Source: Acinetobacter populi (GTDB lineage Bacteria; Pseudomonadota; Gammaproteobacteria; Pseudomonadales; Moraxellaceae). Taken from it: DNA of 64,000 bases. This document shows, piece by piece, positions 56,514 through 61,768 of this stretch. Where the stretch lies: NCBI RefSeq assembly GCF_002174125.1, contig NZ_NEXX01000004.1:186001-250000 (forward strand), written 5' to 3'. The translations under genes were made by a program, and so were the position numbers. Positions within the stretch are counted from its first letter, which is position 1. The number at the start of each line of letters is the position of its first letter. The notes below the pieces were generated by a model. The model was not told the origin of the DNA. It did no database searches and saw nothing but the letters and a program-made list of their open reading frames with translations.

Positions 56514-57809
56514 CTACCATAACGCCAACTGTGTATTGGGGCCGCTGGTATCCACGCCACCCAATTCTGCAAAATGATATAACTGTCCTAGTAATTGTCG
56601 CAATGGCGGTCCAGACTTTGCATGAGTATCGGTGATAACAATAAATTCCAGTACTCGGGCGCGCTCGGACTGACGCTGCTTACTGACCCGATAACGTGGC
56701 ACATCCTGAGTTAATAACATCACTTTACCACGTGCCAGATTGGCTTCGAGTAAATCAGTAGGCGCAATATTACCATCAGTACTGTAGCTGGTAAGAATAT
56801 AGCGTGCATTTATAGTTGCCAATAGTTTCTGGTAGGCTTCTTTGGCATGCTTGGAGGAGTTATAAGCACTTGGACGTTGTTTACGCCACGCACGATCAAT
56901 ACCGCTTTTAAAACCTTTGGTATCTGGTGAAGGCAAGTCCACTTGATCCCATAAAGTCAATGAATTTAAGACATGATAATTACTGCTATAAGCATGTTGA
57001 TTATATGGTGGATCAAGATAAGCCACATCCACTTCAAAATCTGTCATTTGATTGGCAAGATGCTGAGCATCTACACACCACATTTCTGCCTGTAAACGCG
57101 CGGGATCACCGATTTCACAAAATTTACTGGGCGTGAGCCAAAGCAAAGAATCAATGCGCTCCAAAGCTGTTTTGGTTTTTCCACCCCAGCCTTGATGAAA
57201 ACTCTTAAATACGCCGCTGGTATTACTGACAAAACTTGCCGAATATAATAATGGTGCCAGTAATGCACTCATTTCTACCGAATCAATTGCACCCTGTGTT
57301 TGCCATGTTGCAATCTGCTGACGAATGGCATCAATACGCATCCCATTACGACGTTTAAAGAACAGCCTATCCCGACTTGGATCATAAATATCATCATTAC
57401 GAGGGCACAGGTTATGCGTGACCCAGCCTTTGACCTCAGGTAAACGATTTAAATAATCAATTGCAGCCTGATAACCACCCAACTGTTTAAATTCGGGTGC
57501 TTCGACACATGCCAATAAGGCATGATTCAAGGCGTGACTATAAGGTTCCCAGTCATTGGCAATAACCCGATAACCATTCTGGCGAGCAAGCCGAGACACC
57601 ACGCCACTACCCGCAAAAAAATCGACAAATATAGGTGCAGCTTTGCCTTTTTTACGCTCTAGGGTACCTGTTTGTTCCAAGGCTTCTAAAATCAGGTGCA
57701 ATAGACGACGTTTGTTCCCCAGATAGGGTACAAGTTGATGAAATAAATACTCATCTGTAGTACGTGCAGCATGACGACGCTTATGATATACGGAGACTTC
57801 GGCAGTCAT
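56514..57809 (-). CDS. Orphan DNA adenine-N6 methyltransferase (D12-like, alpha class)
   Basis: This 431-residue protein has motif X PYLGNKRRLL (28-37), AdoMet motif I FFAGSG (64-69) and catalytic motif IV DPPYN (266-270), the alpha-class order. That predicts N6-adenine methylation; the recognition sequence is not readable. No restriction endonuclease is adjacent, so it is an orphan, and it sits between ribD (2-bp gap) and ribE. A. baumannii has a described orphan adenine methyltransferase (AamA) linked to surface motility; this could be its counterpart but I cannot confirm it. Confidence 0.85.
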   Translation of the reverse strand: MTAEVSVYHKRRHAARTTDEYLFHQLVPYLGNKRRLLHLILEALEQTGTLERKKGKAAPIFVDFFAGSGVVSRLARQNGYRVIANDWEPYSHALNHALLACVEAPEFKQLGGYQAAIDYLNRLPEVKGWVTHNLCPRNDDIYDPSRDRLFFKRRNGMRIDAIRQQIATWQTQGAIDSVEMSALLAPLLYSASFVSNTSGVFKSFHQGWGGKTKTALERIDSLLWLTPSKFCEIGDPARLQAEMWCVDAQHLANQMTDFEVDVAYLDPPYNQHAYSSNYHVLNSLTLWDQVDLPSPDTKGFKSGIDRAWRKQRPSAYNSSKHAKEAYQKLLATINARYILTSYSTDGNIAPTDLLEANLARGKVMLLTQDVPRYRVSKQRQSERARVLEFIVITDTHAKSGPPLRQLLGQLYHFAELGGVDTSGPNTQLALW

Positions 57810-59522: not shown

Positions 59523-61214
59523 TTATTCAACACGTTCGCCATGTTGGCTAAGATCCAGCCCCATACGTTCATCATCAACTTCTGCACGGATACCAACCAC
59601 CAGATCAATAACTTTCAGGATAATGAAAGTTAATACACCACTATAGACGATTGTAGCAACGACACCTTTGATTTGAATCCATAATTGTGTCATGACAGAA
59701 GCAGGCGCATCTGAACCCATAATAAATTCACTGGCAAAAACAGCGGTGAGCAATGCACCAACGATACCACCAATACCATGTAAACCAAATGCATCCAAAG
59801 CATCATCAGCTTTAAGAAGACGTTTAAGTCCAGTTACAGCCCAGAAACATACTACACCGCCAATCAGACCCATGACCAAACCACCGCCAACAGTCACAAA
59901 ACCAGCAGCAGGTGTGATGACAACCAAACCAGCAATCGCACCGGAAGCAGCACCCAGAGCCGAACCTTTACCACGTACAATACGTTCCGCAGCCAACCAT
60001 GATAATGCAGCAGCAGCAGCAGCAACCTGAGTCACAACCAGCGCCATACCCGCAGTACCATCAGCGGCATATGCACTACCACCGTTGAAACCGAACCAGC
60101 CTACCCAAAGAATACTCGCACCAACCAGTGTTAAAGTCAGGTTATGCGGTGCCATAGACTCTTTGCCAAGCCCCATACGTTTACCGATCATATAAGCGGC
60201 AACCAGACCTGCAACACCAGAGTTAATATGAACAACTGTACCACCAGCGAAGTCAAGTGCACCATCGCTGCCTAACCAGCCGCCACCCCAAACCCAGTGA
60301 CAGATTGGCGCATATACAAGCACAACCCAAAGTGCAGAGAAAATCAAGAAGGCTGAAAATTTCATACGTTCTGCGACAGAACCACTGATGATCGCAACTG
60401 TAATGATCGCAAAGGTCATTTGGAAGATTACATCGATAATTTCAGGAATACCATCAACGGTATCAGAGGAAATTCCCGCCAGCATGATCTTACTGAAATC
60501 ACCCATGAAGGCATTTCCTTCACCATAGGCAATTGAATAACCAATGATGACCCAGACCACACTCACAACCGCAGCAGAACCAAAGCTATACATCATGGTA
60601 GAAAGTACATTTTTTCTACGTACCATACCAGCATAGAACAGTGCCAAACCAGGTAATGTCATAAACAACACCAAAGCTGTTGATACGAAAATCAGCATGG
60701 TATCTGCTTTATCAAGTGGTGCTTTAGCTTCTTCAGCAGGGGCTGCTTCTGCGGTTGCTGCTTCATCAGAAGTTGCAGCAATCGGTGCGCTCGTATCATC
60801 TGCTAAAGTAATTTCAACTTTTCTAGAACTATTTTCATCACCAGCGACGATATCATCTGGTTTTTGTAACTCAATATTTGCATCTGCGACACCCGCAGCA
60901 ACCAATGCAGCTTTTACATTTTCTGCACGATCTTTGGCAATTTTTTTATTGGTCTCAGCATCACCTGTACTATCGACATAGCCACTGAGTTTAAATTTTG
61001 CGTCAGGATTTGCCTTGGCATAATCCACAACGGATTGAATATCTGTAGCCGAAACAGCCGTTTCACCTAAGCCAAATTCAACACTTGCTGGTTGAAAACT
61101 TGCCACTGTTGATGTTGCGACAGGAGTTTGTACCGTAGCGGATTCTTCTGCCCAACTTCCAACTGATGTAAACAGCGCACCAGTTAAACTGAGTGCTAAG
61201 AGCATTTTTTTCAT
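59523..61214 (-). CDS. amtB: Ammonium channel AmtB with an extra N-terminal OmpA-like domain
   Basis: This 563-residue protein starts with a signal peptide (MKKMLLALS...SWA). A periplasmic domain of about 44-136 matches OmpA/MotB-type peptidoglycan-binding domains: GYVDSTGDAETNKKIAKDRAENV and a final SRKVEI. The two residues that in A. baumannii OmpA contact diaminopimelate (Asp in GxxDxTG, Arg in DRA) are present as D81 and R96. An Ala/Glu-rich linker (137-168) leads into the Amt domain with the twin pore histidines H329 (GGTVVHINSG) and H479 (FGLHGIGG). Ordinary AmtB lacks this domain (about 430 residues). The start at 61214 has GGGG 6-9 bp upstream. Transcribed with glnK. Confidence 0.9.
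   Translation of the reverse strand: MKKMLLALSLTGALFTSVGSWAEESATVQTPVATSTVASFQPASVEFGLGETAVSATDIQSVVDYAKANPDAKFKLSGYVDSTGDAETNKKIAKDRAENVKAALVAAGVADANIELQKPDDIVAGDENSSRKVEITLADDTSAPIAATSDEAATAEAAPAEEAKAPLDKADTMLIFVSTALVLFMTLPGLALFYAGMVRRKNVLSTMMYSFGSAAVVSVVWVIIGYSIAYGEGNAFMGDFSKIMLAGISSDTVDGIPEIIDVIFQMTFAIITVAIISGSVAERMKFSAFLIFSALWVVLVYAPICHWVWGGGWLGSDGALDFAGGTVVHINSGVAGLVAAYMIGKRMGLGKESMAPHNLTLTLVGASILWVGWFGFNGGSAYAADGTAGMALVVTQVAAAAAALSWLAAERIVRGKGSALGAASGAIAGLVVITPAAGFVTVGGGLVMGLIGGVVCFWAVTGLKRLLKADDALDAFGLHGIGGIVGALLTAVFASEFIMGSDAPASVMTQLWIQIKGVVATIVYSGVLTFIILKVIDLVVGIRAEVDDERMGLDLSQHGERVE

Positions 61215-61276: not shown

Positions 61277-61768
<492 letters not shown>

Follow-up and report, generated by a model that had tools for sequence, protein, structure and literature searches.

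The locus discussed here raises the question of why the ammonium channel of Acinetobacter populi should carry, ahead of its first transmembrane helix, a domain of the kind with which OmpA contacts peptidoglycan, and with it the questions of whether such a protein is real, where the domain came from and what it does. The window, by which we mean the whole stretch of 64,000 nucleotides that was analyzed, contains on its minus strand an unbroken frame that runs, stop codon included, from 59523 to 61214 and is translated from the ATG at 61214 into 563 amino acids. The original prediction had described a signal peptide, an OmpA-type domain, a linker and a complete AmtB, and this layout is borne out by Pfam matches of the whole protein to OmpA (PF00691; E 2.8e-9) and Ammonium_transp (PF00909; E 4.4e-117). 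The best reading of the fusion protein is a new architecture built from known parts. Its gene and the parts other than the added domain are laid out as follows.

59523..61214, minus strand: amtB-OmpA fusion gene, recognized by its open frame, by the Pfam matches to OmpA and Ammonium_transp and by the same architecture in Acinetobacter puyangensis (L002) and genome G014.
61149..61214, minus strand: signal peptide, about residues 1-22, like the N-termini of orthologous AmtB, with cleavage after ...GSWA placed by eye.
60711..60797, minus strand: Ala/Glu-rich linker, residues 140-168, fast-evolving between the two fusions.
59526..60710, minus strand: AmtB channel, residues 169-563, recognized by PF00909, the alignment with 2nuu and the pore residues.

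In the channel part, the match to PF00909 takes in residues 174-561 and covers positions 2-397 of the 399 in the profile, residues 165-561 align with 2nuu, a structure of E. coli AmtB (E 5.2e-124), and the equivalents of the E. coli pore residues are all present: the phenylalanine gate (F264 and F268), the binding-site tryptophan W309, D321 before the first pore histidine, the twin histidines H329 and H479, and W373. We take the roles of these seven residues in the pore to be those of their E. coli counterparts. The channel surely belongs to the Amt family, whereas the label AmtB is given by similarity, from the sequence likeness, the pore residues and the linkage to glnK, because the protein exceeds the cut-off of the NCBIfam Amt subfamily model TIGR00836 (438.5 bits against 343.3) but falls below that of the NCBIfam AmtB equivalog PRK10666 (486.5 bits against 657). 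It resembles E. coli AmtB (PF00909, TIGR00836) in channel alignment, pore residues and glnK linkage, and differs from AmtB of the E. coli type in that an OmpA module, about 100 residues long, stands between the signal peptide and TM1. Since the Pfam profile finds one PF00909 match in the genome, the fusion appears to be the only Amt of the cell. Directly upstream of the fusion, across a spacer of about 60 bases, lies a P-II gene.

61277..61615, minus strand: glnK-type P-II gene, its start ATG at 61615 read from the sequence (PF00543, E 2.9e-32, in a scan that covered 61280-61612 and left off the first methionine).

The order glnK then amtB is the usual one, and linkage to glnK is usual for AmtB, although not universal. 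At 61655-61670 on the minus strand, some 55 bases ahead of the start of glnK, the letters TGGCAC, five further bases and TTGAA were seen by eye, an element that we take to resemble a sigma-54 promoter with one mismatch in its -12 part; a pattern scan did not report it.

For an artefact of assembly, or of the joining of two neighboring frames, nothing was found to speak, and we regard it as excluded. The two outcomes named as refuting the original prediction, such an artefact and the lack of a Pfam match, were thus both looked for and neither was observed. Uninterrupted fusions of 563 residues and of the same architecture are encoded by A. puyangensis (NZ_OANT01000003.1, L002) and by genome G014 (L004), which is perhaps the same species; these two proteins do not differ from one another and show 96% identity to that of the window. 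The surrounding gene order is also common to A. puyangensis, where riboflavin genes, nrdR and glnK, through to a comM-like gene, lie on the two sides of the fusion as they do in the window, some of these neighbors being named presumptively.

The added domain gives a significant match to the OmpA family. Pfam places PF00691 at residues 55-116 with 37.7 bits against a curated cut-off of 27.2, the N-terminal 154 residues alone give E 3.2e-10 and 40.7 bits, and a profile specific to its subclass widens the bounds of the domain to about residues 34-138. Ordinary OmpA domains carry a GYG-type segment, usually C-terminal and of the form GYG..P...NRRV, which is absent here, the domain ending instead in KP...SSRKVEI. 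The same 'GYG..P' segment is missing from all 22 aligned modules of what we call the short subclass, which end in 'KP ... ARRVE' and have alanine or serine where ordinary domains have asparagine before the arginine pair. Short-type modules pass the Pfam OmpA cut-off where scanned, and the domain of the fusion seems not to be an ordinary OmpA domain that has decayed. The domain and its two key residues are placed as follows.

60801..61115, minus strand: short-type OmpA domain, about residues 34-138, recognized by Pfam, by the fold match and by the subclass profile (131.5 bits at G000:C7:246801-247115 in the window genome; the profile is made of 14 modules including that of the window, and this score and 13 other matches are partly circular).
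60972..60974, minus strand: D81, the equivalent of the peptidoglycan-contacting aspartate of OmpA, from the alignment of 22 modules and four ordinary domains.
60927..60929, minus strand: R96, the equivalent of the peptidoglycan-contacting arginine of OmpA, from the same alignment.

An AlphaFold2 model of the domain, with 14 aligned modules as input, has a pLDDT of 77.8 and a pTM of 0.70; a prediction of the whole protein from the single sequence was poor (pLDDT 44) and was left out of the conclusions. For the domain model, Foldseek ranks highest 5u1h (E 1.7e-7), from the peptidoglycan-binding part of OprF, and 3td3 (E 2.1e-7), an OmpA-like domain from A. baumannii; OprF, OmpA and Pal domains are among the matches, and VIA-align gives Z scores of 14.7 (9uu2), 13.7 (3td3) and 13.6 (3td5, a stem-peptide complex). 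The predicted model points to an OmpA-like fold, in line with the OmpA-type domain of the original prediction. With the periplasmic domain of A. baumannii OmpA (3td3/3td5) the predicted domain has in common the fold and the Asp/Arg pair; it differs in an identity of 22-23% and in that the A. baumannii domain belongs to an outer-membrane protein.

Retention of the Asp/Arg pair had been part of the original prediction, and the alignment agrees. The D81 position is aspartate in 21 of 22 short-type modules and in the four ordinary domains, the lone exception being a serine in the reaction-centre cytochrome module, so that this aspartate is not universal in the subclass; the R96 position is arginine in all 22 and again in the four ordinary domains. 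By motif correspondence through the OmpA of the window genome itself, D81 and R96 match D268 and R283 in the OmpA of A. baumannii Ab169, two residues reported to be important for association with peptidoglycan (PMC6572160). A missing arginine in the RRVEI motif had also been proposed, with weakened binding as its possible consequence. The first arginine, R131, is in fact kept, as it is in 22 of 22 short-type modules, and it is the second that is changed, to lysine (K132), a change seen only in the two AmtB copies among the 22 modules aligned. The supposed weakening rests on a comparison with ordinary OmpA, and the motif of the short subclass is of the ARRVE type with R131 invariant.

The fusion is rare. 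A copy of the OmpA part more than 90% identical occurs in 2 of 175 Acinetobacter genomes, the window genome (G000) and G014, which rules out a genus-wide trait and contradicts the spread across the genus that had been envisaged; the other 14 OmpA-part matches in the genus are weak (32-46% identity) and lie inside other OmpA-family proteins. Whole-protein matches, among those listed, come from the same two genomes out of 149 from the genus. Spread across the family is likewise without support, since among the matches listed from 99 genomes only that of the window genome begins before residue 100. Among the matches listed from overlapping samples of the order (390 genomes), the class (369) and the phylum (398) there was no additional Amt-OmpA fusion. 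An Amt match spanning both parts with a related module should rank near the top there, and one whose OmpA domain is more distant would escape the search. Both domains were found in 10 of the 111 fetched loci with an Amt frame, all of them repeats of the two known fusion genes, and scanning every fetched locus by profile added no fusion to these two. Among six order-sample loci with open frames of 547-851 residues, five Amt frames were seen, each without an OmpA domain, and in L120 none was seen.

The nearest relatives, G078 and G056, encode an ordinary AmtB of 462 residues. When 36 AmtB channel domains are placed in a tree, the two fusions group as a single clade (100/98) next to G078 and G056 (the four together 100/100); the tree leaves out L002, which is identical to L004, and both it and the reading of N-termini cover those loci of L002-L047 that matched a motif, which L037 and L040-L047 did not. 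The fusions have 186 residues before the first-helix motif, compared with 82-93 in 34 other Acinetobacter AmtB, from which the OmpA module is absent. In these 34 (L005-L036, L038 and L039) the signal peptide is separated from the channel by roughly 40-50 residues of tail rich in Ala and Glu, and several Amt of other lineages have similar Ala/Glu-rich tails. The subclass profile found no short-type module beyond the AmtB copies of G000 and G014 in the four Acinetobacter genomes scanned, the sister genomes G078 and G056 having zero, and a donor among these four was thereby rejected. The window domain had no tblastn match in plasmids or in phages, and a CoxB module had none in plasmids. Because the subclass is absent from the four Acinetobacter genomes apart from the AmtB copies, the simplest history is a lateral gain of the module before the two species split, most simply a single gain located in the variable N-terminal tail. 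A loss in the sister pair G078/G056 is a possible alternative history that needs more steps.

A module gained laterally in a tolerant tail could be a passenger that does little, a reading with which the inference of the gain on one branch only and the variation of the N-terminal tail among the 34 other Acinetobacter AmtB are both consistent. We nevertheless find it improbable, as the OmpA part has changed at 3 of 96 residues between the two different fusion sequences compared and the linker at 10 of 29 (65.5% identity). The OmpA part has 13 synonymous and 3 nonsynonymous differences (dN 0.014), and since its dN/dS of 0.059 compares with 0.231 in the linker and 0.024 in the channel (dN 0.010), the module is clearly under purifying selection. 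Values of dS are uneven across the fusions (60711-61088; small counts), the linker reaching 1.04 where the OmpA part has 0.23 and the channel 0.42.

Short-type modules are found on other proteins as well. Against 24 chosen genomes, the subclass profile gave 23 matches of at least 100 bits in 19 genomes, the next best match scoring 65.5; nine of these modules are outside the profile and scored 100.5-142.4 bits, eight of the nine reaching at least 120. The proteins that carry short-type modules include the following.

L132, L144 and L146: CoxB (cytochrome c oxidase subunit II) by Pfam, module C-terminal.
L145: CoxB, named by eye and not by Pfam, module C-terminal.
L151, L152, L185 and L186: H+-pyrophosphatase (HppA), module C-terminal.
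L184: photosynthetic reaction-centre cytochrome (PufC), module C-terminal.
L124, L150 and L172, for example: small proteins with one apparent membrane helix.
L147: DUF2853 protein.

The subclass recurs, then, on energy-converting membrane proteins of other lineages, namely CoxB, H+-pyrophosphatase and the reaction-centre cytochrome. In the module tree, which like the residue counts covers 22 of the 23 modules (that of the H+-pyrophosphatase L186 was left out), the short-type modules separate from the four ordinary domains of the window genome (support 92/91), and the AmtB copies cluster with the four CoxB copies (96/99). The tree does not show that the AmtB module came from CoxB, because it carries a long-branch warning for the four ordinary OmpA domains and leaves the branching inside the AmtB-CoxB group unsettled. 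The CoxB modules include the nearest relatives of that of AmtB: three of them are the closest of all, at 46-50% identity, and the fourth, at 43%, is level with L147. They have in common with it the 'KP' motif and the missing GYG segment; the difference is that the module stands at the C-terminus of the oxidase subunit and at the N-terminus of the channel. H+-pyrophosphatase and the reaction-centre cytochrome represent the same short subclass on an energy-converting membrane protein, again C-terminal, with partner proteins different from that of the fusion and with more distant modules (30-41% identity for the four measured). According to the taxonomy of the search tool, the genomes with CoxB fusions lie outside the order of the window genome and within the same class; our guess is that they are Burkholderiales.

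What, then, might the module do for an ammonium channel? We lean, with some reserve, towards a role in which the OmpA domain would bind peptidoglycan via D81 and R96 and so tether the AmtB trimer to the cell wall, a reading drawn from residue conservation and the predicted fold. In the mechanism that we propose, the variable periplasmic N-terminal tail of a glnK-linked AmtB would have been replaced by, or would have taken up, a short-type OmpA module that is a relative of the C-terminal one of CoxB. After cleavage of the signal peptide, each subunit of the assumed trimer would display one periplasmic OmpA domain on a linker of about 30 residues, D81 and R96 would bind peptidoglycan stem peptides non-covalently, and as many as three OmpA domains would fasten the trimer to the wall, limiting its lateral movement and leaving its ammonium conduction and GlnK control unchanged. 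To span the gap between inner membrane and wall, for which it is otherwise short, a linker of this length would have to be well extended. MotB and TagL, both among the structural matches of the domain model, likewise present an OmpA-like fold on a membrane protein; they are held in the inner membrane by a single helix each, serve as anchors for a motor and a secretion system, and are not channels. The module would be periplasmic if the topology is kept, because AmtB has an N-out topology, its N-terminus being periplasmic and its signal peptide cleaved according to a review (PMC10433425). The trimer, the binding of peptidoglycan and the tethering are what we infer, and the tethering suggested by the original prediction stands in this sense as a plausible role whose binding step would follow from the fold and the Asp/Arg pair. 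The related modules on other membrane proteins (CoxB, H+-pyrophosphatase, the reaction-centre cytochrome and the small one-helix proteins) count in its favor.

The binding site may, however, differ from the classical one, since the subclass has no 'GYG..P' segment and has alanine or serine in place of asparagine before the arginine pair. It is because part of the classical C-terminal segment is lacking that protein docking becomes the main rival: the module could be a folded periplasmic cap that stabilizes the trimer or docks another envelope protein and binds no peptidoglycan. Contacts between proteins are another use of OmpA-family folds, as in TolB/Pal (2hqs) and YfiB-YfiR (5eb1), both of which are among the Foldseek matches. 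We hold such a cap to be rather unlikely, given that the AmtB copies retain both D81 and R96, as do the short-type modules at the frequencies given above. The further suggestion that the domain senses the state of the wall or turgor, so that wall attachment or turgor would pull on the channel and alter conduction or GlnK binding, draws on the architecture only, a domain of wall-binding type linked to TM1. No evidence for it was found, nor any partner or signal in the analysis, and the fast-evolving, low-complexity linker would seem a poor transmitter of force; we judge sensing to be very improbable. Tethering is the role that we prefer, and if wall binding is real, the anchored AmtB trimer allows one to ask directly whether a nutrient channel that is held in place differs in its diffusion, clustering or GlnK control.

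The presence of the short-type module on cytochrome oxidase and proton pyrophosphatase as well suggests a possible wider theme of tethering among inner-membrane complexes. One could go further and see in the short subclass a transferable periplasmic anchor, attached several times to large inner-membrane complexes of energy conversion and transport and fixing them to the wall in general; the four complexes concerned would be cytochrome oxidase, proton pyrophosphatase, the reaction-centre cytochrome and the ammonium channel. We offer this only tentatively, as a generalization that we would sooner doubt than defend. In the open literature searched, no discussion of the tethering of inner-membrane complexes by such modules was found, and, by title and the start of the abstract, no description of an Amt-OmpA or CoxB-OmpA fusion, most subscription papers and preprints being outside the scope of the search; the main text of the review PMC10433425 contains neither 'OmpA' nor 'fused'. 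Both parts of the protein are known families, and the known Amt fusion that we met carries a different added domain: Ks-Amt5 of Kuenenia is reported to be an Amt fused to a histidine kinase (PMC5764959), whereas here it is an OmpA domain that has been added, at the N-terminus on the periplasmic side.

Elsewhere in the window, a gene at 56514-57809 on the minus strand encodes a D12-class N6-adenine DNA methyltransferase (PF02086, E 3e-25; PHROG 27806, E 1.2e-30). It sits between ribD and a gene that we take to be riboflavin synthase-like, an order also present in A. puyangensis L002.
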